A stretch of DNA of 35,900 nucleotides, from contig PFCB01000010.1 in assembly GCA_002773135.1 (NCBI GenBank), positions 4,264 through 40,163 of the forward strand. Direction: 5' to 3'. Positions 6,108-20,306 of the stretch are shown here, in pieces. The stretch's first letter is position 1. The number at the start of each line of letters is the position of its first letter. The translations under genes and the position numbers were made by a program. This DNA comes from Candidatus Magasanikbacteria bacterium CG10_big_fil_rev_8_21_14_0_10_47_10 (GTDB lineage Bacteria > Patescibacteriota > Patescibacteriia > Magasanikbacterales > UBA922). The notes beneath the pieces are model-generated. The model was not told the DNA's origin, did no database searches, and saw only the letters and a program-made list of their open reading frames with translations.

Positions 6108-6731
6108 ATGTATATAATAGATTTTGACGACACGCTTTTTGACACGCACGCCTATAAGCGCGCGCGGCTTGAAGCTGTGCAGGCGGTTGGAATATCAGAG
6201 GACTTGTTTTGGAAAACCTATGCGGACGCCAGAGTGACGCCGGATGGCACCTTTTCCTATACCGATGAACGCCATGCGGCACTCCTGGGTTCGCACAGAA
6301 AAGATGAAAAGGCTGTCTGTGAGGCCTTTGCTCAGATCAACGACAGGATTCATGAGTTTGTCCAGCCGGACGCTGAGAATTTTTTACATCGGCTCAAGGC
6401 AACGGGCACGTCTCTGGTGCTATTGAGTTTGGGGGATGAGGGGTTTCAGGAAATGAAAACACACCGCAGTGGACTCCACATGTTTTTTGACAGAGTCGTT
6501 ATGGTGGATCGTACAAAAAAAGATGTCGTTGCGGAACTTATGAAAACAAACGAGGATCCGACTTGGTTTATTAACGATAAAGTCAGCGAGACGAAGGAGA
6601 TTGTCCGGTTGTTTCCGGCTGTCCGGGCGGTACTCAAAATATCGCCCAAGTTTGATCGTATGGAATACGAGGAGTCGGGTCTTCCTTTCTTTGATACACT
6701 TACAGAAATTGCAGACTATGCGATCAACTAA
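6108..6731 (+). CDS. HAD-family hydrolase
   Basis: This 207-residue protein starts with the haloacid dehalogenase nucleophile motif (YIIDFDDTLFDT, residues 2-13: Asp5 and Asp7). Motif II is LVLLSLGD, and a C-terminal WFINDKVSE segment resembles the acidic motif IV. Most such proteins are phosphatases of small metabolites; the substrate is unknown. The start at 6108 is preferred over 6066, which overlaps the trmB gene. Its end overlaps the next gene by 14 bases, so the two are co-translated. Confidence 0.8.
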   Translation: MYIIDFDDTLFDTHAYKRARLEAVQAVGISEDLFWKTYADARVTPDGTFSYTDERHAALLGSHRKDEKAVCEAFAQINDRIHEFVQPDAENFLHRLKATGTSLVLLSLGDEGFQEMKTHRSGLHMFFDRVVMVDRTKKDVVAELMKTNEDPTWFINDKVSETKEIVRLFPAVRAVLKISPKFDRMEYEESGLPFFDTLTEIADYAIN

Positions 6732-7464
6732 AATCGCCGTGGTAATTTTGGCTGCGGGTGAAGGAAAAAGGATGAACAGTGATGTGCCAAAAGTGATGCA
6801 CTTACTTTTTGGTAAGCCACTCATTGACCATGTTGTTTCACATGTTGAACAGGCTAATATAACAGATGCTCCGGTTGTTGTTGTTTCTCCGAATCACACG
6901 CAGGTTCAGGGTTATCTGGGTACTAGGGCGCGGTATGTAACTCAGCAGGAGCAGCTGGGCACTGGGCATGCCGTCGCTACTGCGCATGACGTGCTCAAAG
7001 ACGCCAAGCACGTTATGGTGCTTTATGGTGATATGCCATTTTTGAAACCTGCCTCAATAATGGCTCTGGCACAGACACATTTGGAAGAGGGGAATACGAT
7101 TACGCTTGCCACGGTAAAAACACAATTTGAGCAAGGCGCCGATAGTTTGCTGTATGATTTTGGTAGAATTATTAGAGATGAGAAGGGGCAAATTGTAGAC
7201 AGCGTTGAATTGAAAGATGCCACCCCGGAGCAGGCGGCGATGACGGAAGTAAATCCATGTTATTATTGCTTTGACGCGGCATGGCTTTGGGAACATGCGC
7301 ATAAACTGGAAAGGAACAACGCACAGGGGGAATATTATTTGACCGACCTGGTTCGATTGGCCGTTCAGGAAGGGGATCACCTTGGATCCGTTGATATTGA
7401 GGCAAGCGAAGCCATTGGGATTAACTCAAAAGAGGATTTAATGAAAGCCGAAGCCCGTGTATGA
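6718..7464 (+). CDS. glmU: UDP-GlcNAc pyrophosphorylase domain (GlmU N-terminal half only)
   Basis: This 248-residue nucleotidyltransferase has the GlmU signature ILAAGEGKRMNSDVPKVMH (about residues 10-28), QQEQLGTGHAV, the YGDMPFL metal site, a VNPCYYCF segment and GEYYLTDLV. It should join N-acetylglucosamine 1-phosphate and UTP to give UDP-GlcNAc. Classical bacterial GlmU is about 450 residues and carries a C-terminal left-handed beta-helix that acetylates glucosamine 1-phosphate; here the protein ends before it and no hexapeptide repeats follow. The ATG at 6718 overlaps the previous gene and directly precedes the conserved N-terminus. Another sugar-1-phosphate uridylyltransferase is a less likely alternative. 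Confidence 0.85.
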   Translation: MRSTKIAVVILAAGEGKRMNSDVPKVMHLLFGKPLIDHVVSHVEQANITDAPVVVVSPNHTQVQGYLGTRARYVTQQEQLGTGHAVATAHDVLKDAKHVMVLYGDMPFLKPASIMALAQTHLEEGNTITLATVKTQFEQGADSLLYDFGRIIRDEKGQIVDSVELKDATPEQAAMTEVNPCYYCFDAAWLWEHAHKLERNNAQGEYYLTDLVRLAVQEGDHLGSVDIEASEAIGINSKEDLMKAEARV

Positions 7465-8142: not shown

Positions 8143-9993
8143 ATGTGTGGAATTATCGGATACATTGGAAACAAACAGGCAATGCCGATTTTGATCAAAG
8201 GTTTGAGACGCTTGGAATATCGTGGGTATGACAGCGCCGGCATTGCTGTATGCGAAAAAAATCCAGCGGGGAGCGAAATTTGCAGAGTGCGATCCATTGG
8301 AAAAATTGATATGCTGGCGGACAAACTCGCGGAAGTGACACTCAATGGTACAGTGGGAATTGCTCACACGCGCTGGGCAACGCACGGCGGTGTTACGGAA
8401 GAAAATGCGCATCCGCATGTTGCACAAGACGGCAAACTTGCCTTGGTCCACAATGGTATCATTGAAAATTATAGAGAGCTGAAAGAGCATTTGCCGGACG
8501 TTACGTTTACGTCTGATACGGATTCTGAAGTCTTGGCGCATCTTATTGCCAAACATTATCAAAAAGATACCGGCACGGACAAAGATTTGCGCGTGGCTGT
8601 TGAAAAAGCATTGAGTCATGTGCGGGGTACCTATGGAATTGTTGTCATGCACAAAGATCACCCCGATTGCTTGATTGCGGCTCGAATGGGCAGTCCTATT
8701 GTGATTGGTATTGCGGATGATGGGCACTATATTGCCAGCGATCCGACACCCATTTTGGCGTACACTAAAAATATGATTTTTTTAGATGATGGTGAAGTCG
8801 CGGAAATGCATCCTGACAAAATGAAAATACGTGATTTAAAAGCGCATGAGATCACAAAATGTGTTGAGCAGATAGAATGGAATGACGAACAAGCTGAAAA
8901 GCAGGGGTTCCCCCACTTCATGCTCAAAGAAATATATGATCAGCCGACGGTATTTCAGGATGCCATCCGTGGACGATACAATTTACACGAGGGGACATCG
9001 TTTTTGGGCGGGTTGAATATGACGGACGACGAGATGCGGTCCATCAATCGCGTGATTTTGATTGCGTGCGGCACGGCCAGTCATGCAGCTATGATTGGCA
9101 AATACGCGTTTGAGCGCCTTGCGGGTATACCAACAGAAGTTGATGTAGCCAGTGAATTTCGATATCGTGATCCGATTATTGATGGGAGGACGCTGGTATT
9201 TGGCATTTCTCAGTCCGGTGAGACGGCGGATACTATTGCCGCTTTGCGTGAGGCAAAACGAAAGGGCGCCTTTGTTCGCGGTGTTGTAAACGCGGTTGGC
9301 TCAACCATTGCGCGAGAGACAGATGGTGGATCATATATGCACGCGGGTCCGGAGCTTTCTGTCGCTTCCACAAAAGCATATACCAACATGATTGCAATTT
9401 TACTTCTCTACGCGTTGCAGTTTGGACGATTGAAACGTGTCACGACGGCCACTGGTCAGCGAATGCTACATGCCCTGCGAGATATTCCAGAGAAAATGAA
9501 AATGATTTTGGATCAAAGCGAGCAAATTAAACAGATTGCCATAAAGTATAAAGCGTATCCCAATTTTTTCTTTTTGGGCAGGGGGATTAATTATCCAGTG
9601 GCTATGGAAGGGTCACTCAAATTGAAAGAAATAACGTATATCCATTCAGAAGCGTATCCCGGCGGAGAAATGAAACATGGCCCCATCGCGCTGTTGAGTG
9701 ACCAGTTTCCTATTTTTGCCATTATGACGCGCGATCAGCTCTATGATAAGATGAGAAGCAATATTGAAGAAGCGCGTGCTCGGAATGCAAAAGTTATTTT
9801 GGTCGCAACCCAAGGTGATGAACAAGCACGCGAGCTTGCTGATGACATCATGTATGTTCCGGATACCATGGAACTACTTGAGCCGCTTCTCAATACCATC
9901 CCATTGCAGTTGTTTGCCTATCACACGGCTGTTGCCTTGGGACGTGATGTGGACAGACCAAGGAATTTAGCCAAATCAGTGACTGTAGAATAG
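8143..9993 (+). CDS. glmS: Glutamine-fructose-6-phosphate aminotransferase
   Basis: This 616-residue enzyme makes glucosamine 6-phosphate from fructose 6-phosphate and glutamine, the first step of amino-sugar synthesis. The start MCGIIGYIG exposes Cys2, the glutaminase nucleophile, which fixes the start codon. LEYRGYDSAGIA, HTRWATHGG and HNGIIENY follow. The isomerase half has two SIS domains, with CGTASHA, SQSGETADT, STKAYTNM and ELSVAS motifs, and the protein ends with the canonical PRNLAKSVTVE tail. Length is typical (E. coli 609). It lies in one cluster with glmU and glmR. No glmS ribozyme-like leader is possible, as only 10 bases separate it from the previous gene. Confidence 0.98.
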   Translation: MCGIIGYIGNKQAMPILIKGLRRLEYRGYDSAGIAVCEKNPAGSEICRVRSIGKIDMLADKLAEVTLNGTVGIAHTRWATHGGVTEENAHPHVAQDGKLALVHNGIIENYRELKEHLPDVTFTSDTDSEVLAHLIAKHYQKDTGTDKDLRVAVEKALSHVRGTYGIVVMHKDHPDCLIAARMGSPIVIGIADDGHYIASDPTPILAYTKNMIFLDDGEVAEMHPDKMKIRDLKAHEITKCVEQIEWNDEQAEKQGFPHFMLKEIYDQPTVFQDAIRGRYNLHEGTSFLGGLNMTDDEMRSINRVILIACGTASHAAMIGKYAFERLAGIPTEVDVASEFRYRDPIIDGRTLVFGISQSGETADTIAALREAKRKGAFVRGVVNAVGSTIARETDGGSYMHAGPELSVASTKAYTNMIAILLLYALQFGRLKRVTTATGQRMLHALRDIPEKMKMILDQSEQIKQIAIKYKAYPNFFFLGRGINYPVAMEGSLKLKEITYIHSEAYPGGEMKHGPIALLSDQFPIFAIMTRDQLYDKMRSNIEEARARNAKVILVATQGDEQARELADDIMYVPDTMELLEPLLNTIPLQLFAYHTAVALGRDVDRPRNLAKSVTVE

Positions 9994-10093: not shown

Positions 10094-10513
10094 ATGTATA
10101 CGGAGGGGGATATTACGAGGAACATTATTGGTCAAGCAATGCGAGTGCATAGAGAAGTAGGACCCGGGTTTAAGGAAACGGTGTATCATCGTGCGTTGAC
10201 TCATGCGCTGACTGAAATAGGATTATATATTGATGTTGAAAAAAGGTATGATGTGTCATTTGCAGGTAGTCGTGTGGGTACATTTATCCCGGATATCGTC
10301 GTCGAGAAGAAAATCATTGTTGAACTGAAGTCTGTGAGTGATATGAAAAAATTATTTTATGCTCAAATAATTTCCTATTTACGAGCAGCAGGCATGGAAG
10401 TCGGTCTTTTGATAAATTTTGGGAATCAAAGTCTGGAGTTCAAGAGATTCGCCAACTATAAAGATTATTCGAAATCAATCAGTGGAATCCAAATAATTCA
10501 GGGAAATCTATGA
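10094..10513 (+). CDS. GxxExxY protein (PD-(D/E)XK-like fold)
   Basis: This 139-residue protein belongs to the GxxExxY family: the motif is GFKETVY (about residues 25-31), followed by FIPDIVVEKKIIVELKSV (about 57-74), which has the D...ExK arrangement of PD-(D/E)XK nucleases. The biological role of the family is not established. It separates glmS from glmR in an otherwise coherent cluster and is preceded by a 23-bp direct repeat, so it is probably a later insertion. The last bases overlap the glmR start (ATGA). An ATG four bases earlier is in another frame. Confidence 0.85.
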   Translation: MYTEGDITRNIIGQAMRVHREVGPGFKETVYHRALTHALTEIGLYIDVEKRYDVSFAGSRVGTFIPDIVVEKKIIVELKSVSDMKKLFYAQIISYLRAAGMEVGLLINFGNQSLEFKRFANYKDYSKSISGIQIIQGNL

Positions 10514-11472
10514 AGAAAAAAGTTGTTGTATTTGGAGGCGGAAATGGCAGTGCCATGATGATGCGGGCGCTGAAGCGACATACAGATGTTTTTGATACGT
10601 ACGCGGTTGTCAGCATGAGCGACTCTGGCGGATCGTCCGGCAGACTGCGCGAAGAGTTCAACACTCTTCCGCCGGGGGATATTCTCCGTGCTGTACTGGC
10701 ATCATCCAAATATAGCTATAAAGAATTTCTCAAGCCACTTTTTTACGGTACCCGCTTTGATGCGAGTGGCAAACTTTCGGGTCACAATCTTGGGAATCTT
10801 TTCCTCACGCTTGGTTCAGAGTATGCAGGAGCGTATATGGATGCTATCAACGCGCTGAGTCAGGCTGTTGAAGCGCAGGGAACTGTGTATCCCGCGACCC
10901 TCACGCCAAACAACTTGGTCGCCACCCTCCAAGATGGGTCAGAGCTTTTTGGCGAGCATGCCATTGATAGGCCGGGGGAGCAGCGATCACCAATCATGGA
11001 AGTGCGGTTGGAACCGCATGTGGATGCATTTGTTGGCTGTCTGAGCGCTATAGAACAATCCGACTTTCTTATGTTTGGACCGGGCAGTTTGTACTGTAGC
11101 GTCGTTGCCTCTGTGTTACCAAAAGGAATCAGAGACGCTATTGAAAAATCCAACGCACGGTTAGTGTACGTTGCCGGAGATATATATGAGTTGGAGGGTG
11201 AAGCAGGGCCGACGGCGCTCAGTGAGTTTGTGCGTCAGCTGGAGCAATATGTGCCGCGAAAGATAGATTCCATTATTTTTAATGGACAAGACCTCTCAGA
11301 AAAACAAGCAGCGTACTATAAAGAAAAAATGTGGGGGAGGCTCACCTTTGATAGGGAGTTGTTATCAAATTATGATATTATCGATATACCGTTTGAAAAA
11401 GAGCATGGTGGCCTGGATCCGGAGAAACTTGGTTTAATATTGCGCAATCTTGTAACGTCATATGAAAATTAA
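10510..11472 (+). CDS. glmR: GlmR/YvcK-family gluconeogenesis factor
   Basis: This 320-residue protein is a CofD-like family member close to Bacillus YvcK (GlmR), which binds UDP-GlcNAc and stimulates GlmS. The motifs are FGGGNGSAMMMRAL (residues 8-21), VSMSDSGGSSGRLREEF (about 34-50), LPPGDILRAVLA, GHNLGNLFL and MFGPGSLYCSV. Length matches the family (about 310-330). It lies just downstream of glmS with only the GxxExxY gene between, which supports the same functional link here. It overlaps the GxxExxY stop by four bases and the following GNAT gene by 11 bases. The lactate-phospho transferase CofD is excluded by genomic context and the short form. Confidence 0.9.
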   Translation: MKKKVVVFGGGNGSAMMMRALKRHTDVFDTYAVVSMSDSGGSSGRLREEFNTLPPGDILRAVLASSKYSYKEFLKPLFYGTRFDASGKLSGHNLGNLFLTLGSEYAGAYMDAINALSQAVEAQGTVYPATLTPNNLVATLQDGSELFGEHAIDRPGEQRSPIMEVRLEPHVDAFVGCLSAIEQSDFLMFGPGSLYCSVVASVLPKGIRDAIEKSNARLVYVAGDIYELEGEAGPTALSEFVRQLEQYVPRKIDSIIFNGQDLSEKQAAYYKEKMWGRLTFDRELLSNYDIIDIPFEKEHGGLDPEKLGLILRNLVTSYEN

Positions 11473-11797
11473 GAAAGAATCACAAAACAGAGCATACGCG
11501 ATACGGTTTTCTGCCCAAGAAGATGGGAGCGAAGTCGGTCGTGCGTACTTGTATATTCTGTATAATGACTTGCATGATGAACCGGTCGGTCTCATGGAAG
11601 ATGTATTCGTAGAGGAAAAGTATAGGGGGAGAGGCATAGGGACCTCGATTGTCACCGATCTGATCGTAGAAGCAAAAAAACAGGGTTGCAGAAAGTTGAT
11701 TGGACAGAGTAGATATGGAAGAGACGATGTTCATGCTTTGTATATCCGGCTTGGGTTTAGGGATCATGGGAAAAATTTTCGGATGGACTTTATATGA
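11462..11797 (+). CDS. Small GNAT-family N-acetyltransferase
   Basis: This 111-residue protein has a compact GNAT fold: LMEDVFVEEKYRGRGIGTSIV (residues 44-64) with the acetyl-CoA pyrophosphate loop RGRGIG, then GCRKLIGQSRYGRDDVHALYIRLGF and a final strand. The substrate is unknown. The EDV...YRGRGIG...GCRKLI...V..LY..LGF pattern resembles yeast-type glucosamine-6-phosphate acetyltransferase (Gna1), though many GNATs share it. It overlaps glmR by 11 bases and closes a cluster whose GlmU lacks an acetyltransferase domain, so acetylation of an amino sugar is an attractive but unproven role. Confidence 0.8.
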   Translation: MKIKKESQNRAYAIRFSAQEDGSEVGRAYLYILYNDLHDEPVGLMEDVFVEEKYRGRGIGTSIVTDLIVEAKKQGCRKLIGQSRYGRDDVHALYIRLGFRDHGKNFRMDFI

Positions 11798-11834
11798 TGT
11801 CAGTAACTGTTCGTAGTTCTTACATTTCGTGATG

Positions 11835-11869
11835 CCCACAGTGTCCACGAGCATCGTGACTACTGTGGG
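11835..11869 (+). other. Long hairpin in the leader of the GC-rich ORF
   Basis: CCCACAGT (11835-11842) pairs perfectly with ACTGTGGG (11862-11869), and an inner stem CACGA/TCGTG caps it. It lies just upstream of a strong Shine-Dalgarno site. It could control expression of the small ORF or be the end of a mobile unit. Confidence 0.7.
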
Positions 11870-11877
11870 TCTTGCGA

Positions 11878-11883
11878 AGGAGG
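11878..11883 (+). promoter_or_regulatory. Strong Shine-Dalgarno site of the small GC-rich ORF
   Basis: AAGGAGGT occurs just before the ATG at 11889 with good spacing. Clear Shine-Dalgarno sites are otherwise nearly absent in this window, so it supports translation of this ORF and its unusual origin. Confidence 0.7.
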
Positions 11884-11888
11884 TGCGC

Positions 11889-12053
11889 ATGCCCGACGAT
11901 CGTCAGTGCGAGGAACTGGATTCCGATGCGTCGCGCCGGATGCTGGACGAAGGGTGTCCTCACGATGAGGACGCGAGCGCGACCCCGCAGAGGGGACGCC
12001 GGGAGTCCACGCCGGAGAAGTCGCCCGGGGATCAGAAGCCCCTCGCCAAGTAG
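11889..12053 (+). CDS. Small GC-rich hypothetical protein (possible foreign gene)
   Basis: This would encode 54 residues starting MPDDRQCEELDSDASRRML. The composition is polar and charged, ending in a Pro, Lys and Arg rich tail (STPEKSPGDQKPLAK), so it is probably largely unfolded. I recognise no family. The reading frame is much richer in GC than the neighbouring genes. It is preceded by a hairpin and an excellent Shine-Dalgarno site and is followed by strong hairpins, which together favour a real expressed unit. Because high GC opens frames by chance, a non-coding structured RNA or decayed insert remains possible. Confidence 0.5.
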   Translation: MPDDRQCEELDSDASRRMLDEGCPHDEDASATPQRGRRESTPEKSPGDQKPLAK

Positions 12054-12056
12054 CCG

Positions 12057-12076
12057 CCAGCACAACAGCTGGCAAA
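12057..12076 (+). other. Small hairpin after the GC-rich ORF
   Basis: GCCAG and CTGGC pair around the ACAACA region just after the stop codon of the small ORF. No T-run follows. Confidence 0.45.
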
Positions 12077-12086
12077 ACCATTCACG

Positions 12087-12116
12087 GCCGAACTTGGGGA
12101 CGCCCAGGTTCGGCCA
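12087..12116 (+). other. Strong 13-bp GC-rich hairpin after the small ORF
   Basis: GGCCGAACTTGGG pairs with CCCAGGTTCGGCC around GACG, with one G-T wobble. It is followed by ACAACTC rather than a T-run, so if it terminates transcription it does so without a U-tract. Its 3' end, TCGGCCACAA, is the same as that of the hairpin after the GC-rich gene at 34534-34562 (minus strand). Confidence 0.75.
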
Positions 12117-12124
12117 CAACTCTC

Positions 12125-12178
12125 CCTGCCTACCGGTCCGCCAGTCGGACGGACTCCGTTTATTGCGGAGCAGGCAGG
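12125..12178. repeat. Palindromic repeat element, three-way-junction form
   Basis: CCTGCCT (12125-12131) pairs with AGGCAGG (12172-12178) and encloses two further hairpins, GTCCG-CCAGT-CGGAC (12136-12150) and CTCCG-TTTATTG-CGGAG (12154-12170). Its ends match those of the palindromes in the broken tRNA copies at 20037-20079 and 20270-20289, so it belongs to the same dispersed family. It lies just before the citrate module. Confidence 0.75.
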
Positions 12179-12191
12179 CTTACTCCTTACT

Positions 12192-13340
12192 ATGAATCTC
12201 TACGAATTTGAAGGAAAAGAATTTTTTAAAAAACATGGCATTGCCGTACCAAATGGTGTTGATATTATTCGTGGAATGGATATTGCAAAAGCATACCAAT
12301 CTTTGGGTATCACTGATGTTGTGGTAAAGGCGCAAGTGTTGTCCGGCAAGCGGGGTAAAAATAATGGTGTTCGTTTTTGTTCATCTTTGCCGGATGTTGA
12401 GTCGGCAGTGTCAGATTTGTTTTCAATGAATGTGCGGGGGCAATATGTTGCCGCTGTTCGGATAGAAGAAAAATTGAATATTGATCAAGAACACTATATA
12501 TCCATTACATACGATACCGATACGCAGCAGCCGGTGTTGGTATATTCAAATGAAGGAGGCATGGATATTGAAGACGTTGAAAATGAATTGATACAAAAGA
12601 TTCCACTGGATATTCGCAATACACACGTGCAAACAGATATTCCATTCGCACAAGAATTGTGGAATTGTTTTTTGCAAGAAGATTGCCGTGTAGTGGAAAT
12701 TAATCCGCTTGTTAAAACTGTAGATGGACAGTGGGTCGCAGCAGATTCAAAAATTGCGTTGGATGATGATGCTTTTTTTCGACATGAAAGTTGGAAAGAG
12801 CTGGAACCTCGCACCATGATGGGCCGTCCGCCAACAGACAGAGAAATTGAAGTGCAAAAAATTGATGCAGGCGAAGGATATTACCGTGGCACTGCGGGGA
12901 AGTATATTGAAATGGATGGGGATATTGCCATATTGTTTTCCGGTGGCGGCGCAAGCATTGCCAATATGGATGCCCTGATAAATGAGGGGTTACAGCCGGC
13001 CAACTATACGGAATACTCCGGAAATCCTCCAACAGAAAAAGTGTATGAACTCACCAAAACTGTTTTGTCAAAGCCCGGACTTAAGGGACTTTGGATTGCC
13101 GGTGGCGTGGCAAACTTTACTGATGTTGAACAGACTTTCAAAGGAATTGTTTGGGCATTGGATGAAATCAAACCGACCTATCCGATTGTTGTTCGCCGTG
13201 CCGGACCATTTGAAGCGGAAGGCATGGAGCTGATGCGGCAGTGCGCTGAGCGAAATAATTTAAATGTGCAATTATTTGGAAAAGAATCCAGCATGAGTCA
13301 AACGGCAGCGGTTTTGGCTGATGCGGTCAAGAAAATATAG
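12192..13340 (+). CDS. ATP-citrate lyase / citryl-CoA synthetase, beta-type subunit
   Basis: This 382-residue protein has an ATP-grasp N-terminal half (MNLYEFEGKEFFKKHGI; VVVKAQVLSGKRGKNNGV; VEINPLVKT) and a CoA-ligase C-terminal half. It follows the citrate-cleaving enzymes rather than succinyl-CoA synthetase. FSGGGASIANMDAL, NYTEYSGNPP, GGVANFTDVEQTFKGI and VVRRAGPFEAEGM correspond to the GGGAS, YGEYSG, ANFT...TFKGI and VRRGGP motifs I know from ATP-citrate lyase. It should activate citrate with ATP and CoA together with the alpha subunit at 13776. I see no clear promoter in front; the gap holds a GC-rich island. Confidence 0.88.
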   Translation: MNLYEFEGKEFFKKHGIAVPNGVDIIRGMDIAKAYQSLGITDVVVKAQVLSGKRGKNNGVRFCSSLPDVESAVSDLFSMNVRGQYVAAVRIEEKLNIDQEHYISITYDTDTQQPVLVYSNEGGMDIEDVENELIQKIPLDIRNTHVQTDIPFAQELWNCFLQEDCRVVEINPLVKTVDGQWVAADSKIALDDDAFFRHESWKELEPRTMMGRPPTDREIEVQKIDAGEGYYRGTAGKYIEMDGDIAILFSGGGASIANMDALINEGLQPANYTEYSGNPPTEKVYELTKTVLSKPGLKGLWIAGGVANFTDVEQTFKGIVWALDEIKPTYPIVVRRAGPFEAEGMELMRQCAERNNLNVQLFGKESSMSQTAAVLADAVKKI

Positions 13341-13343
13341 CAT

Positions 13344-13769
13344 ATGAATCCCATCTTTCCACTTCAAGTCATCTTTGGTGCGCAAGCACTGGGGACGCGC
13401 GGTAGCATAGATATAAAACAAAATAGCCTTGCAATAAAAAAAGGTTATGTTGTATATGAAATTCCGTTTCAGCAAATTGAACAGTTTCACCTGCAACATC
13501 GCATGATGCGTTTTCATTCCAAATCATATACAAGGGGGGAATCATTTCGTATTAAAATAAAAGCAGGAGCGGATAGCATCCGCTGTCAATGGGATACCAG
13601 CTGGACCATGGATCCAAATCAGGATCCTGTTGCATCTGTTCAGGCGCTTATTACAGCGCTTGTTGAAGCGGGGTTGCCGCAGACAAAAATAAAGCACAAT
13701 AAAGGATATATCCCGCTTATACTATTTTTCGGTGTGCTTGGTTTGATCGCGTGGTATACATTTAGCTAA
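13344..13769 (+). CDS. Hypothetical tail-anchored protein inside the citrate module
   Basis: This 141-residue protein has no recognisable family. Residues 1-120 alternate short beta-like stretches (FGAQALGTRGSIDIKQNSLAIKKGYVVYEIPF), perhaps a PH-like fold. The last 20 residues (YIPLILFFGVLGLIAWYTFS) form one hydrophobic helix at the C-terminus, so the bulk should face the cytoplasm. It begins 4 bases after the beta subunit and ends 6 bases before the alpha subunit, so it is certainly in the same operon. It might hold the citrate-cleaving enzymes at the membrane, but that is conjecture. Confidence 0.7.
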   Translation: MNPIFPLQVIFGAQALGTRGSIDIKQNSLAIKKGYVVYEIPFQQIEQFHLQHRMMRFHSKSYTRGESFRIKIKAGADSIRCQWDTSWTMDPNQDPVASVQALITALVEAGLPQTKIKHNKGYIPLILFFGVLGLIAWYTFS

Positions 13770-13775
13770 GAATAT

Positions 13776-14672
13776 ATGGCAATTTTGATTCAAAAAGATT
13801 CGGCCGTTCTCGTGCAAGGAATTACTGGTAAAGAGGGGCAAAAGGCAGCGGCTGCGATGCTGGAATATGGCACAAACGTGGTGGGCGGCGTGCGTCCGGG
13901 AAAAGCAGGGGAAGTGGTTGAGGGCAAACCTGTCTATGACACGGTGCAGGATGCTGTTGCAGCGCTTGGCCAGATAGACGTGAGTGCCATTTATGTTCCG
14001 CCATTTGCTGCAAAGCAAGCTATGATGGAGGCAATTGATGCTGGTGTTTTACAGATCAATGTTATTGTTGAGAGAATTCCAATTCAGGATACGGCCTATT
14101 GCTTGGCCGCTGCAAAAGAAAAAAATATTCAGATTATCGGTCCCAGTTCTCTTGGATATATTGCACCGGGCATTGGCAGAATTGGTGTTGTCGGCGGACC
14201 CAAACAGCTAGCCGATGAAGTATTCATGCCAGGCTCCATTGGTATAATTTCCAGATCCGGAGGAATGACAAACGAAGTGTCGTGGCAGATTCGCAAAGCT
14301 GGTATGGGGCAAAGTACAGCTGTACATGTTGGCGGTGATTTGCTTATGGGGACGACGTATGTTGATTTGCTGCGACAGTTTGAAATGGATGAGCAAACAA
14401 AGGCGGTTGTTTTGTTTGGAGAGCATGGGGGCAGCTATGAGTTTGGTATTGTTGAAATGATTCAAAAAAAGGAATTTACTAAACCGCTCGCAGTATATGT
14501 TGGTGGAAAATTTGCCAATGTGTTGCCGGAGGGCATGAACATTGGTCATGCCGGTGCCATTGTCGCGCGTGGGCAGAGTGCAGAAGAAAAATCGAAGGCG
14601 TTGGCCGCTGTTGGCGTAATGATAGCGGATAAATATGAGGATTTAGTAACGCGTATTAAGCCGTACGCCTAA
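13776..14672 (+). CDS. ATP-citrate lyase / citryl-CoA synthetase, alpha-type subunit
   Basis: This 298-residue protein resembles the CoA-binding alpha subunit of succinyl-CoA synthetase. It has the CoA site VQGITGKEGQKAA, and GHAGAI with the phospho-histidine at His258. The intermediate motifs are of the citrate-cleaving type: IISRSGGMTNEV and IIGPSSLGYIAPG, where succinyl-CoA synthetase has SRSGTLTYE and GPNCPG. With the beta subunit it should form citryl-CoA from citrate, CoA and ATP. In most ATP-citrate lyases this part is fused to the lyase domain; here the lyase is the next separate gene, 9 bases away. Confidence 0.88.
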   Translation: MAILIQKDSAVLVQGITGKEGQKAAAAMLEYGTNVVGGVRPGKAGEVVEGKPVYDTVQDAVAALGQIDVSAIYVPPFAAKQAMMEAIDAGVLQINVIVERIPIQDTAYCLAAAKEKNIQIIGPSSLGYIAPGIGRIGVVGGPKQLADEVFMPGSIGIISRSGGMTNEVSWQIRKAGMGQSTAVHVGGDLLMGTTYVDLLRQFEMDEQTKAVVLFGEHGGSYEFGIVEMIQKKEFTKPLAVYVGGKFANVLPEGMNIGHAGAIVARGQSAEEKSKALAAVGVMIADKYEDLVTRIKPYA

Positions 14673-14681
14673 GAAGCATTT

Positions 14682-15410
14682 ATGAAATTCAAAACATCAA
14701 TCACAGACGTGAAAAAGGACGGATCAGAAGTAATGCGTGGTGAAAAATTAACAGACTTGATAAAGGAAAAAACATTTGCAGAAGTCATTTATTTTATTCT
14801 AAAAGGCCAGATGCCAGACGAAAGTCAGCTGACAATGTTTAATGCAATTCTTACATCTGTTATTGATCACGGTCCTGCTACAGCATCAGCCATGAACGCC
14901 CGTATTTCAGCATCTGCAAAAAATGATATGCACGTTGCGCTGGCTGCAGGTATTTTGGGATTTGGTCCGCGTCATGGTGTTGCAGTAGAAAGTGCCATGC
15001 AATTTTTAATGAAAAACAAGGAGAATAAAAATGTATCGCAGACACTACAGGAGATGAAGGAGAGAAAAGAATATGTCCCTGGGTATGGTCACAAAGTCTT
15101 TGACACTGACCCACGGGCAACCGCACTTTTTGCACTGGCAAAGGAAACAGGTATTGCGGGCGATTATTGCGCACTTGCAGAAGCAGTGCGCAGTGCACTC
15201 AATGAGTCATCGTCAAAATCATTACCTATTAATGTAGACGGAGCCATTGCCGCTATATTGTGCGATATTGGATTTGACGCTGCATTGGGAAGTGGTATAT
15301 TTCTTATTGGACGGGTGCCAGGACTTGTGGCACATATTCATGAGGAAATGACCAATGATACGGGTATTCGACGGTTGGATTCCACTGAGGTAGAATATAA
15401 GAATGCATAA
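14682..15410 (+). CDS. Citryl-CoA lyase (citrate synthase-like domain)
   Basis: This 242-residue protein is a stand-alone citrate synthase-type lyase domain. The catalytic pattern is that of the C-terminal part of ATP-citrate lyase: DHGPATASAMNARISA with His63, VPGYGHKVFDTDPRA with His137, and LPINVDGAIAAILCDIG with Asp186, then GIFLIGRVPGLVAHIHEE. It should split citryl-CoA into acetyl-CoA and oxaloacetate. At about 240 residues it is much shorter than true citrate synthase (about 430). It follows the two synthetase subunits directly, matching the separate synthetase plus lyase arrangement known from Hydrogenobacter. Confidence 0.87.
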   Translation: MKFKTSITDVKKDGSEVMRGEKLTDLIKEKTFAEVIYFILKGQMPDESQLTMFNAILTSVIDHGPATASAMNARISASAKNDMHVALAAGILGFGPRHGVAVESAMQFLMKNKENKNVSQTLQEMKERKEYVPGYGHKVFDTDPRATALFALAKETGIAGDYCALAEAVRSALNESSSKSLPINVDGAIAAILCDIGFDAALGSGIFLIGRVPGLVAHIHEEMTNDTGIRRLDSTEVEYKNA

Positions 15411-15439: not shown

Positions 15440-16111
15440 ATGAAAAATATCAAATCCATCGCACTTATTGCCGCTATCATTATGGTAGCCGGGGTTGGGT
15501 GTTCCAAGGTTGCCGAACAAAAACAAGAAGAAAGGTCTGCATTTGCGGATGATGTCGTTAAGGTTGGTGTCCTGTTTCCATTTGAGGGCGAGAAGGCTGT
15601 TCTTGCTGATGAAGCAAGGCGGGGCATCGGCATGGTCCTGGCCGAGCTTGGCCGTTCAAATATTCAACTCGTGTACGCCAATGGCGGGTGCAACGCGGAA
15701 ACCGCTGCTGCCGCAACCGCGAGGCTGCTTGAAGATAAGATGGTGAAGGCTATTATTGGCGGATTATGCGATGAAGAAACATACGCAGCCGCGCCTTTGG
15801 CACAGGCGGCAGGTATTGTTCTTATTACGCCGGCAACCAGAACATTCAACGCCCCACATGGTGATTTTATTTTTCAAACCAGTCCATCCGAACAGGGAGT
15901 GGAGCGGAAAGCAACCAGGGAGTTTGTTGCAGCGCATAAAGACCTGTATGATACAGCCCCAAGTCAGTATGCCGCAGAATCATATGACGCTATGAAAGCA
16001 ATTTCTGAAGCGCTTCAACAAGATATGCCACTCAAAGATGCATTGTACGAGGTCTCATTTGAAGGTGCGGCAGGACCGGTTGATTTTGACGCGAATGGTG
16101 AAGTAAAGTAA
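15440..16111 (+). CDS. LivJ-like lipoprotein lacking the second lobe
   Basis: This 223-residue protein has an N-terminal hydrophobic segment and the lipobox VAGVGC, so the mature lipoprotein would start at Cys21. The rest matches type 1 periplasmic binding proteins (LivJ-like): KVGVLFPFEGEKAVLADEARRGI, then GGLCDEETYAAAPLAQAAGIVLITPAT, then FIFQTSPSEQG, and near the end QYAAESYDAMKAI. Intact family members have about 350-380 residues; the region between the first lobe and the YDA motif, about 100 residues, is missing. It may be a reduced form or a decayed gene. No transport genes lie nearby. The start fits the lipoprotein signal and lies 5 bases after a possible -10 (TATAGG). Confidence 0.75.
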   Translation: MKNIKSIALIAAIIMVAGVGCSKVAEQKQEERSAFADDVVKVGVLFPFEGEKAVLADEARRGIGMVLAELGRSNIQLVYANGGCNAETAAAATARLLEDKMVKAIIGGLCDEETYAAAPLAQAAGIVLITPATRTFNAPHGDFIFQTSPSEQGVERKATREFVAAHKDLYDTAPSQYAAESYDAMKAISEALQQDMPLKDALYEVSFEGAAGPVDFDANGEVK

Positions 16112-16126
16112 ATCAAAATTTTTAGC

Positions 16127-16741
16127 ATGGTGGACTATTTGAAAGAGACAATTGAAACATACAATAACAATGCGCAGGCCTTTGAGCATTCAAGAGCATC
16201 GTTCGCGCAGCATAGCGTTATTGAACATTTTTGTTCGCTTATTTCCGGGGAAAATATATTAGATCTCGGCTGCGGTCCCGGACGTGACGCAAGAATTTTT
16301 GTTGACAAAGGGTACACTGTCACCGGAATTGACCTCTCCCAGGAGCTGTTACAGATAGCACAAGCAAATGTTCCAGAGGCGACTTTTTTACTCATGGATA
16401 TGAGGGATTTGTCGCTGCCGGATCATCAGTTTGATGGCGTTTGGGCGAGTGCCTCATTGCTGCATCTGAAGAAAGAAGATATTTCGGTTGTTTTAAATAA
16501 CCTGTATAGAGTATTGAAACCTGGAGGAGTGCTGTATATTTCAGTTAAGGAAGGAAATTCAGAAGAAATAGAAAATGATCCTCGATTAGGTGGTGGCTCC
16601 AGATTTTTTTCATATCATACTGCCCAGCAGATGCGAGAGTATATTGAAAATGTCGGATTCCATATTATAGAAATAAATGAAAGTGAGTCACATAATGCGC
16701 TTCGGACATGGAATTGGATAACGCTGCTTGCCAAGAAATAA
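16127..16741 (+). CDS. SAM-dependent methyltransferase, class I
   Basis: This 204-residue protein has the class I fold: motif I ENILDLGCGPGRDARIF (about residues 42-58), TGIDLS with the ribose-binding Asp (post I), MDMRDL (motif II) and YRVLKPGGVLYISVKEG (motif IV/V region). The target cannot be told. The C-terminal part contains a WNWI segment and little else. It lies one base before, or slightly overlapping, the endonuclease Q gene, so the pair may be co-transcribed; repair-related methylation is possible but not shown. Confidence 0.85.
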   Translation: MVDYLKETIETYNNNAQAFEHSRASFAQHSVIEHFCSLISGENILDLGCGPGRDARIFVDKGYTVTGIDLSQELLQIAQANVPEATFLLMDMRDLSLPDHQFDGVWASASLLHLKKEDISVVLNNLYRVLKPGGVLYISVKEGNSEEIENDPRLGGGSRFFSYHTAQQMREYIENVGFHIIEINESESHNALRTWNWITLLAKK

Positions 16742-16742
16742 C

Positions 16743-18026
16743 ATGTTGAACCAAATTATTGATCTTCACATTCACTCCAAGTATTCGCGGGCATGTTCCA
16801 AACATTTGGAGTTGCCTACCATTGCAACGGCCTGCGAAACGCGGGGTATTGATATTGTCGTCACCGGGGATATGACGCATCCGGCGTGGTTTGCATCAAT
16901 CAAAGAGAATTTGGTAGAAGAAAATTCAGGTTTGTATAAGCTGGCAAATGATCAAAGTAAAACGCGCTTTATTTTGGGGACAGAAGTTGCAAGCATCAAA
17001 AAACATAAAGGACAAACGCGACGAGTTCATTTGCTTTTGTTTGCGCCAACAATAGACGTGGCGGAAATATTCAACGCTGAATTGCAGCGTCGCAATTTTA
17101 ACCTGACCGCAGACGGGCGACCAATTCTTGGCATGCCGAGCAAAGATATTTTGCAGATGATGCTCGATATCGATGAGCGTATGGTTATGATTCCTGCGCA
17201 TGCCTGGACACCGTGGTTTGGCATTTTTGGATCAAAAGGCGGGTATACTTCGCTTGAAGAAGCGTTTGATGAGCTGCACACCAATATATTTGCGATAGAA
17301 ACAGGTCTTTCCAGTGATCCACTCATGAATTGGCGGTGCAGTATGCTAGATAATATTACTATGGTATCGTCATCTGACGCGCACAGTCTACAAAAACTTG
17401 GACGTGAAGCGAATGTGCTGCAATTTGAAAGCAAACAGGATATTACATATGATGAAATCATGCGCGTGCTACGAACAGAGGACAAAGAAAGATTTTTGAA
17501 TACCATTGAGTTCTATCCGGAGGAGGGGAAATATCACATGGACGGCCACAGAGATTGTGGCGTGATGATGCATCCTGTGGAAACAGAAAAACATAAGGGA
17601 TTCTGTCCAAAATGCGCGAAACCGCTTACAATTGGTGTGATGAATCGCGTGGAAGAAATGGCGGATAGAACAGAGGAAGAAGCAAAAGTATTCGGCGCGG
17701 ATAATAAAGTACCGTATACAAGCATTGTCCCCCTACCAGAAATTATTGCTGACGTGTATTCATGTGGTGTTGCCACAAAGCGCGTCGTCCGCGTGTACGA
17801 GTTGCTTACTCAAACACTTGGATCTGAGTTTCATATTCTTTTGCATGCTTCAATGGAAGATATCGCCGCGGCATCCGATACCAGTATTGCGGATGCGATT
17901 GATAGAGTGAGAAAGGGCCATGTGGTTGTCCGACCGGGGTACGACGGCGTGTTTGGCACGGTAAAAGTGTTCGAGGATTCGATAACTGTAAAAAGAAATG
18001 CACAGTTGAATTTACAGTTGGACTAA
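16743..18026 (+). CDS. Endonuclease Q (PHP-domain DNA repair nuclease)
   Basis: This 427-residue protein has a PHP domain starting IDLHIHSKYSRACSKHLELPTI (the HxH motif at about residues 9-11), followed by VVTGDMTHPAWF and, further on, MIPAHAWTPWFG and SSSDAHSL metal-binding clusters. A zinc-binding region CGVMMHPVETEKHKGFCPKC leads into LTIGVMNRVEEMADR. This arrangement is that of endonuclease Q, which nicks DNA 5' of deaminated bases such as uracil and hypoxanthine. These proteins were often labelled UvrD-like helicase by mistake. The ATG at 16743 fits the family N-terminus; 16728 would overlap the methyltransferase. Confidence 0.88.
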   Translation: MLNQIIDLHIHSKYSRACSKHLELPTIATACETRGIDIVVTGDMTHPAWFASIKENLVEENSGLYKLANDQSKTRFILGTEVASIKKHKGQTRRVHLLLFAPTIDVAEIFNAELQRRNFNLTADGRPILGMPSKDILQMMLDIDERMVMIPAHAWTPWFGIFGSKGGYTSLEEAFDELHTNIFAIETGLSSDPLMNWRCSMLDNITMVSSSDAHSLQKLGREANVLQFESKQDITYDEIMRVLRTEDKERFLNTIEFYPEEGKYHMDGHRDCGVMMHPVETEKHKGFCPKCAKPLTIGVMNRVEEMADRTEEEAKVFGADNKVPYTSIVPLPEIIADVYSCGVATKRVVRVYELLTQTLGSEFHILLHASMEDIAAASDTSIADAIDRVRKGHVVVRPGYDGVFGTVKVFEDSITVKRNAQLNLQLD

Positions 18027-18080: not shown

Positions 18081-18320
18081 TTATTTCTTTCGGCGAGCAG
18101 GCTTGCGCTTAGCAACTTTCTTCTTAGGAGCGGCTTTACGTTTCGCAGCTTTCTTAGGAGCAGCTTTGCGTTTCGCTGGTTTGCGTTTAGCAACTTTCTT
18201 CTTAGGAGCGGCTTTACGTTTCGCAGGTTTGCGCTTAGCAACTTTCTTAGGGGCGGCTTTGCGTTTCGCTGGTTTGCGTTTAGCAGCTTTCTTAGGAGCA
18301 GCTTTTTTTCTTGCTGGCAT
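18081..18320 (-). CDS. Histone H1-like Lys/Ala-rich DNA-binding protein
   Basis: This 79-residue protein consists of repeats of about 16-17 residues built on AAPKK(K)VAKRKPAKRK, starting MPARKKAAPKKAA. It is highly basic with no hydrophobic core, like the C-terminal tail of eukaryotic histone H1 and chlamydial Hc2. Such proteins bind DNA without sequence preference and condense the nucleoid. The ATG at 18318-18320 is chosen because it sits 8 bases after a strong Shine-Dalgarno site (AGGAGG); an in-frame GTG at 18327-18329 overlaps that region. The gene has a long structured leader. The repeat number is easily changed by recombination. Confidence 0.85.
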   Translation of the reverse strand: MPARKKAAPKKAAKRKPAKRKAAPKKVAKRKPAKRKAAPKKKVAKRKPAKRKAAPKKAAKRKAAPKKKVAKRKPARRKK

Positions 18321-18473
18321 ATTGTACACCTCCTCTCAAGGTGAGTTGAATGCGTTTGTTTTTGACATGACCATGGTACATACCAAAGTAACTCAAACGC
18401 ATGAGACTTTACACGACAAGCATTTGTGTAAAGTATTGTGCATATTAAATGCAACGACCTTTGATATAGTATA
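18321..18473 (-). promoter_or_regulatory. Promoter and long structured leader of the histone-like gene
   Basis: TTCAAA, 17 bases and TATACT (18473-18468, minus strand) form a plausible promoter, giving a leader of about 140 bases. Within it ACTTTACAC/GTGTAAAGT (18406-18414, 18426-18434) is a perfect 9-bp hairpin, and ATGCGTTTG/CAAACGCAT (18350-18358, 18394-18402) a second 9-bp inverted repeat. GAGTT at 18343-18347 (AACTC in the RNA) can compete with it by pairing with AACTC at 18389-18393. The Shine-Dalgarno AGGAGG follows at about 18330-18335. Most of this 234-base gap is thus leader. Confidence 0.6.
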
Positions 18474-20235: not shown

Positions 20236-20306
20236 TGGCTCCGACTTACTATAGTCGGGTCGATGGTTCCCTGCCTGCCGGCAGGCAGGAATTCCATCTG
20301 GGCGCA
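20236..20306 (+). pseudogene. Broken tRNA-Ile copy with palindromic insert (3' fragment)
   Basis: The 3' half of the intact tRNA recurs here: GTCGGGTCGATGGTTC, then AATTCCATCTGGGCGCA, with a 20-base palindrome inserted exactly between C and A of the T-loop (20270-20289). The upstream part is degenerate, although CGACT/AGTCG still forms a stem. The start is approximate. Confidence 0.8.
20270..20289. repeat. Perfect 20-bp palindromic insert in the T-loop
   Basis: CCTGCCTGCCGGCAGGCAGG is identical to its reverse complement. It interrupts the T-loop of the tRNA copy without any loss of flanking tRNA bases, so the insertion is precise. It has the CCTGCCT and AGGCAGG ends of the element at 12125-12178. 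Confidence 0.88.

Follow-up and report, generated by a model that had tools for sequence, protein, structure and literature searches.

Split citryl-CoA synthetase and citryl-CoA lyase genes within an amino-sugar cluster of a Magasanikbacteria genome: a putative acetyl-CoA supply for glucosamine acetylation

Here we describe a predicted citrate-cleaving module, and the amino-sugar genes among which it lies, in a 35,900-nucleotide stretch of DNA (the window) from Candidatus Magasanikbacteria bacterium CG10_big_fil_rev_8_21_14_0_10_47_10. The window is part of contig C33 of a 36-contig genome of 1.04 Mb that is 98.9% complete. An initial annotation, made from the letters of the window, presumed a host from the Candidate Phyla Radiation (CPR) and recognized a three-gene module composed of a beta subunit, an alpha subunit and a lyase. 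The CPR assignment is right, because the nearest named relatives of the lyase, in a search with an alignment query, are metagenome-assembled genomes (MAGs) of Magasanikbacteria, and it is in keeping with the size of the genome. All three open reading frames (ORFs) lie where they had been placed; a fourth, between beta and alpha, had been missed. Also overlooked was the neighbourhood of the module: glmU, glmS, yvcK and a gene for a GNAT-family acetyltransferase all lie upstream of the citrate genes on the same strand, placing the operon in a cluster for the acetylation of amino sugars (Table 1).

Table 1. Predicted features of the citrate-cleaving module and its surroundings, with positions in the window.
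Feature	Position	Strand	Basis
Citryl-CoA synthetase beta (large subunit), predicted, 382 aa	12192..13340	+	PF08442 ATP-grasp_2 and PF16114 Citrate_bind; 6hxq_B best PDB match; tree; citrate-site motifs
ORF without family, 141 aa, C-terminal hydrophobic helix, interrupts module	13344..13769	+	no Pfam/NCBIfam match
Citryl-CoA synthetase alpha (small subunit), predicted, 298 aa, phospho-His H258	13776..14672	+	PF02629 CoA_binding, PF00549 Ligase_CoA; SucD alignment; tree
Citryl-CoA lyase, predicted, free-standing, 242 aa; H63, H98, H137, D186	14682..15410	+	Citrate_synt, NF004869, 6hxp, GltA alignment, tree
GlmU, uridylyltransferase domain only, exact start uncertain	6601..7464	+	GlmU model positions 2-234 of 447
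GlmS, glutamine:fructose-6-phosphate transaminase	8143..9993	+	TIGR01135 779 bits, cut-off 418
YvcK, UDP-GlcNAc-binding protein	10510..11472	+	TIGR01826 217 bits, cut-off 196
GNA1-like GNAT, 111 aa, putative glucosamine-6-phosphate N-acetyltransferase	11462..11797	+	PDB matches, fold; 11-bp overlap with yvcK
PDDEXK_3 protein, an insert separating glmS from yvcK, outside proposed pathway	10094..10513	+	PF13366
Periplasmic binding-protein-like lipoprotein	15440..16111	+	PF13458; starts 29 bp downstream of the lyase gene
PHP protein, TIGR00375-type, conserved right-hand neighbour	16728..18026	+	TIGR00375 match below cut-off

Protein families, active-site residues, gene order and trees together make it very probable that the module encodes a split citryl-CoA synthetase (CCS) and a separate citryl-CoA lyase (CCL), that is, ATP-dependent citrate cleavage, as the initial annotation had proposed in preference to succinyl-CoA synthetase (SCS). 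The beta subunit scores 110.9 bits against PF16114 Citrate_bind (Pfam cut-off 26.8), with PF08442 ATP-grasp_2 also above its cut-off; its best PDB match by sequence is the CCS large subunit 6hxq_B (6e-62), and it carries the ACLY-like ANFT..TFKG citrate loop and VRRAGP motifs, both of which are missing in E. coli SucC. The lyase reaches 252.5 bits against the NCBIfam citryl-CoA lyase model NF004869 (cut-off 212), and its best PDB match by sequence is the Hydrogenobacter citryl-CoA lyase 6hxp (3e-58). The alpha subunit is 45% identical to E. coli SucD, and the histidine of its GHAGAI motif, already singled out as His258, aligns with the SucD phospho-His. A DHGPA/GYGH/NVDG triad had been assigned to the lyase; on alignment with E. 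coli GltA its last two members stand (H137 and D186), and the triad histidine is H98 of GPRHG, the DHGPA residue (H63) being the neighbouring oxaloacetate-site histidine. Accordingly to this assignment, CCS alpha and beta would convert citrate, ATP and CoA into citryl-CoA via a phospho-His intermediate, and CCL would cleave citryl-CoA into acetyl-CoA and oxaloacetate.

Phylogenetic trees were computed from named relatives together with ATP-citrate lyase (ACL) and SCS sequences from other organisms; they are quick trees whose only support values are from the Shimodaira-Hasegawa-like approximate likelihood ratio test (SH-aLRT). SCS-like sequences form a single group in the beta tree (99) and the alpha tree (98), as do ACL sequences (100 and 99, respectively), and the window subunits fall outside both groups, among the CPR citryl-CoA synthetases. 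In the lyase tree the window protein groups with free-standing CCLs, whereas ACL and E. coli GltA lie elsewhere, and the comparison with SCS and citrate synthase that had been suggested with the initial annotation thus came out in its favour. The Aquificota sequence 6hxq_B lies apart from the CPR beta group on a long branch with a support of 82 (the tree of alpha holds no corresponding reference). Because the CPR synthetases join neither this reference nor the CCS group of Aminicenantes and Firmicutes, they look like a separate, divergent branch of citryl-CoA synthetase, the deep branching of which is tentative.

Three other enzyme classes were considered and rejected. A fused ACL would be a chain of approximately 600 aa, whereas the alpha subunit (298 aa) and the lyase (242 aa) of the window are separate, and the ACL clade excludes the window in all three trees. 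Citrate synthase and 2-methylcitrate synthase are contradicted by the length of the lyase, whose central region is approximately 100 residues shorter than that of GltA, and by scores below the cut-off for all citrate synthase models. In a third rival, alpha and beta would be a synthetase for succinyl-CoA or malate-CoA and the substrate of the lyase would be a different acyl-CoA, such as a malyl-CoA-like one. Succinyl-CoA synthetases are the best PDB matches of alpha by sequence and outscore 6hxq_A, which is itself among the matches, and the NCBIfam SCS models give 231 and 274.7 bits. These scores nevertheless remain under the curated cut-offs (370 and 336, respectively), beta possesses the ACLY citrate-binding domain, both subunits lie outside the SCS clade, and a CCL scoring above its cut-off is adjacent in nearly every relative; we therefore regard this rival as very improbable.

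The split enzyme can be set beside two characterized systems. Like CcsA/CcsB (6hxq) and Ccl (6hxp) of Hydrogenobacter thermophilus, the window encodes three separate polypeptides with the same domains and catalytic residues, for which a two-step cleavage would be expected; it differs in the length of beta (382 aa vs. 429 aa), in having ANFT in place of ANNT, in the failure of the CPR beta subunits to group with that of Aquificota, and in the location of the locus in an amino-sugar cluster of a genome without aconitase. With ATP-citrate lyase (AclA/AclB and ACLY; Chlorobium 6hxj, Methanothrix 6hxi, and human) it shares the predicted overall reaction, homologous domains and the ANFT..TFKG loop, but its lyase is not fused to alpha and the two fall into separate clades in the three trees.

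Distribution was surveyed in 380 genomes sampled across the phylum and in 86 genomes of the order. The initial annotation had considered citrate cleavage unexpected in reduced Patescibacteria, which is only partly correct: relatives of the lyase occur in 24 of the 380 genomes and in 43 of the 86, and ACL in CPR has been published (PMC12577380). Citrate-cleaving genes are therefore normal for the lineage of this order. Of the 43 order genomes, 38 encode the split form, 4 a fused, ACL-type form (open frames of 406-608 aa), and 1 a short and divergent form. Of the 19 phylum loci fetched, 18 have beta next to alpha and CCL, the latter two being either separate or fused into one chain, and the remaining locus is a contig-edge copy. 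Fused ACL (alpha-lyase) was also seen in other CPR families (L033-L041), which means that the phylum has citrate cleavage of two kinds; the one fused ACL used in a search is closest to Methanothrix ACLY-B. Free-standing CCLs without neighbouring synthetase genes were encountered in Zixibacteria, Thermoplasmatota and Calditrichota (L065, L069, L077, L089, L096, L098, and L120).

The relevant passages of PMC12577380 and PMC13014828 note citrate cleavage in Patescibacteria/Saccharimonadia MAGs from annotation and name ACL only, with neither a split CCS/CCL nor a connection to the synthesis of amino sugars. A literature search, from which most subscription papers were absent, returned nothing joining citryl-CoA lyase and CPR, nor any description of citrate cleavage in an amino-sugar cluster.

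Within this cluster, a HAD phosphatase gene lies between glmU and glmS on the same strand, and GlmU is without its C-terminal left-handed beta-helix acetyltransferase domain; it is similarly short in relatives that have the whole gene on the contig. Because GlmU has no acetyltransferase half, another acetylator of glucosamine phosphate is needed, for which the GNAT protein is a candidate. Its best PDB match by sequence is 3fb3/3i3g (6.5e-9), of which 3I3G is TbGNA1, the glucosamine-6-phosphate N-acetyltransferase of Trypanosoma brucei (PMC4964394). Its structure is modelled with a predicted local distance difference test (pLDDT) score of 94.5, and a fold search with this model returns 3fb3 first (1e-6). 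AAC(3) aminoglycoside acetyltransferases follow close behind in both searches. Conserved residues (E46..R55..G58.G60..C76.K78..Y94) retain the E-D, R.GxG, CxK and Y motifs of GNA1.

Conservation of the cluster was assessed by fetching the GNAT region for most members of the order, reading gene order and counting clusters by hand. The block glmU-glmS-yvcK-GNAT is kept across the order, and is followed either by beta-alpha-CCL and usually the PHP protein, or by the PHP protein directly. In many order genomes, with and without citrate genes, a module of three genes lies between glmU and glmS (L190:5356-7641; L191-L197; L024); the domains that it encodes are POR_N/PFOR_II, TPP_enzyme_C and POR. 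Judged by these domains it is a pyruvate:ferredoxin-oxidoreductase (POR)-type enzyme, a second predicted source of acetyl-CoA. Clusters counted in the order comprise 29 with CCS/CCL only, 10 with POR only, and 4 with both. Genome-wide, split CCL and short POR are seldom found together (3/38 against 20/48, p=5e-4), and GNAT is associated with one or other of the acetyl-CoA sources that were tested (61/64 against 9/22, p=2e-7), both tests being plain counts over the 86 genomes uncorrected for kinship. Order genomes without GNAT mostly have neither citrate cleavage nor POR.

The same association recurs in other CPR groups, with different gene orders. At locus L106 the order is glmS-beta-alpha-CCL-yvcK followed by an archaeal-type glmU, and adjacent genes overlap or are only a few bp apart. 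At L026 and L031 the reading frames of glmS and beta overlap, and glmS lies directly after a fused ACL at L036. L028 encodes the acetyltransferase domain of GlmU as a protein of its own (233 bits with the C-terminal half of the GlmU model) in a frame that overlaps that of beta, and in Daviesbacteria an archaeal-type GlmU (bifunctional sugar-1-phosphate nucleotidylyltransferase/acetyltransferase) abuts beta or lies near it. Overall, a same-strand amino-sugar gene lies no more than 3 kb away at 34 of the 52 CPR citrate loci and at none of 15 loci of other phyla, although the CPR loci, split or fused, are not independent of one another and the loci of other phyla make a modest control group.

Since the citrate genes sit in a cluster for glucosamine synthesis and acetylation, supplying acetyl groups for cell-wall precursors is their likely job, and we consider it fairly probable that the module serves specifically to provide acetyl-CoA for the acetylation of glucosamine, leading to UDP-N-acetylglucosamine (UDP-GlcNAc) and peptidoglycan. 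In the proposed pathway, GlmS would make glucosamine-6-phosphate, the GNA1-like GNAT would acetylate it with acetyl-CoA from citrate cleavage, a presumed mutase would convert the product to N-acetylglucosamine-1-phosphate (GlcNAc-1-P), and the acetyltransferase-less GlmU would add UMP to give UDP-GlcNAc; in relatives, the POR-type module would replace or share the supply of acetyl-CoA. This proposal rests on gene identities, catalytic residues, phylogenetic separation, and the conserved neighbourhood with its swaps, from which we infer the direction of the reaction, the GNAT substrate, the source of citrate, and amino-sugar acetylation as the main use of acetyl-CoA. The window combines parts of two established routes, namely GlmS and the GlmU uridylyltransferase domain of the bacterial GlmS-GlmM-GlmU route and a GNA1-like GNAT as in eukaryotes; it differs from the former in that GlmU is without the acetyltransferase domain and acetylation would follow a GNA1-like step. 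To our knowledge, an acetyl-CoA-forming enzyme within the cluster is known for neither route.

The suggestion in the initial annotation, acetyl-CoA and oxaloacetate from scavenged citrate, points to a broader role. Citrate from a host or the surrounding community would feed carbon and energy metabolism, oxaloacetate going to aspartate or phosphoenolpyruvate and acetyl-CoA into many reactions, and the nearby amino-sugar genes would reflect no more than housekeeping co-transcription. The identity of the enzyme fits such a role, citrate uptake by ACL-bearing Patescibacteria has been proposed on ecological grounds (PMC13014828), and a single neighbourhood could not separate a general from a dedicated function. 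In one sister genus (L170, L171), moreover, a gene for a CBS protein and one for a PF03600 transporter follow directly after CCL. General citrate use is nonetheless rather unlikely in our view: the link with glucosamine acetylation recurs in several CPR groups, in varied arrangements and for split and fused enzymes alike, the same cluster can receive a pyruvate-type acetyl-CoA module in exchange, no acetate kinase, pyruvate dehydrogenase (PDH) or aconitase was found in the genomes of the order, and the PF03600 transporter has no significant co-occurrence with CCL among the 86 genomes.

The CBS and PF03600 genes form a conserved pair that is also present in the window genome (contig C7, L172:8345-10126). 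The transporter (G000:C7:14899-16113) scores above the PF03600 cut-off; its best NCBIfam match is MamN, below cut-off, with no NCBIfam citrate-transporter model among the matches. We did not accept it as a CitMHS citrate transporter, given its MamN/ArsB-like character and its distribution relative to CCL, and citrate as substrate of the pair is a guess. Citrate would need an external source. Searches of the window genome for aconitase, acetate kinase, POR_N and PDH E2 were negative, and a second gene of the citrate synthase family is absent; because aconitase is missing, there is no reductive tricarboxylic acid (TCA) cycle. A PF02866 match in the genome was rejected as malate dehydrogenase (AGVSQKPG, with Gln at the specificity position) and is probably a lactate dehydrogenase.

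The enzymes could also run in reverse, acetyl-CoA and oxaloacetate being joined to citryl-CoA, from which CCS would free citrate and form ATP, with citrate leaving the cell as an end product of fermentation. Acetate-oxidising Desulfobacter is known to run ATP-citrate lyase in reverse, and the overall citrate-cleavage reaction is near equilibrium; the genome has no other citrate-forming enzyme, and no acetate kinase with which to gain ATP from acetyl-CoA. Such operation would, however, require acetyl-CoA from elsewhere, for which the window genome has no POR_N or PDH E2 match. Genomes with the short POR mostly have no CCL, contrary to what would be needed, and no aconitase is present to use citrate. 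We consider reverse operation quite improbable.

Several points weigh against a dedicated acetyl-CoA supply. Enzyme activities are predicted from sequence for every protein of the proposed pathway, and acetyl-CoA may have other uses. By fold, GNAT is nearly as close to the AAC(3) aminoglycoside acetyltransferases as to GNA1, and one residue region of GNA1 is missing from it. There is no certain citrate importer: the 2HCT citrate transporter is absent from all 86 order genomes and the PF03600 transporter resembles MamN/ArsB. Amino-sugar neighbours are lacking at 18 of the 52 CPR citrate loci, in some cases for want of flank, and the co-occurrence tests ignore phylogeny. Acetyl-CoA may also come from other enzymes, such as ADP-forming acetyl-CoA synthetase, acetate-CoA ligase or pyruvate formate-lyase. 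Contig breaks blur some absences (in G448, beta and alpha lie at a contig end), and in G441 and G442 they fall inside the CBS gene that comes after CCL in sister genomes. Genome G438, with the cluster and neither acetyl-CoA source, is a true exception so far.

Within the module, the 141-aa ORF lies 3 bp from beta and 6 bp from alpha; its predicted structure, from a single-sequence model, is poor (pLDDT 54), and no counterpart was found in any relative fetched. In relatives the corresponding gap holds a NUDIX gene (L024:9705-10262), a 334-aa ORF (L023:4980-5984) or a 299-aa ORF (L190:12797-13693), or is empty. As unrelated ORFs or none are found there in different relatives, the gap accepts inserts and resembles an insertion site within the operon. 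Upstream of beta, the interval 11798-12191 looks foreign, being rich in GC (as much as 69%, vs. approximately 42% around it); it contains a 54-aa charged ORF (11889-12053) with AAGGAGG ahead of its start, and GNAT and beta are directly adjacent in many relatives, unlike in the window. No repeats were found in the beta leader. Downstream, the PF13458 lipoprotein is absent from the same site in most relatives. Close to its N-terminus, the lyase of locus L025 (L025:8815-9615) carries the in-frame insertion DLPAGRQG, which may derive from an element similar to the perfect palindrome CTGCCTGCCGGCAGGCAG at window positions 20271-20288. On the minus strand, 18081-18329 encodes a Lys/Ala/Pro-rich repeat protein (AAPKKKVAKRKPAKRK) resembling a histone H1 tail.

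In the annotation of MAGs, ACL is usually taken as a sign of the reductive TCA cycle or of citrate scavenging, and the use of acetyl-CoA in CPR is usually left undecided, as is the reason why so small a genome retains citrate cleavage when it has no cycle of carbon fixation. The cluster described here offers a concrete answer for citrate cleavage in tiny genomes, namely the acetyl groups of UDP-GlcNAc, and ACL or CCS genes in CPR genomes should be treated with caution as a marker of autotrophy. It predicts that the cells build their own peptidoglycan precursors from fructose-6-phosphate, relying on citrate or pyruvate at one step. More broadly, there is perhaps an even chance that the amino-sugar operons of many Patescibacteria that have no TCA cycle include a private, interchangeable acetyl-CoA generator, by citrate cleavage or of the POR type, chiefly for the acetylation of cell-wall glucosamine, and that in Magasanikbacteria this acetylation would be a GNA1 step of eukaryotic kind, taking the place of the acetyltransferase domain of GlmU.

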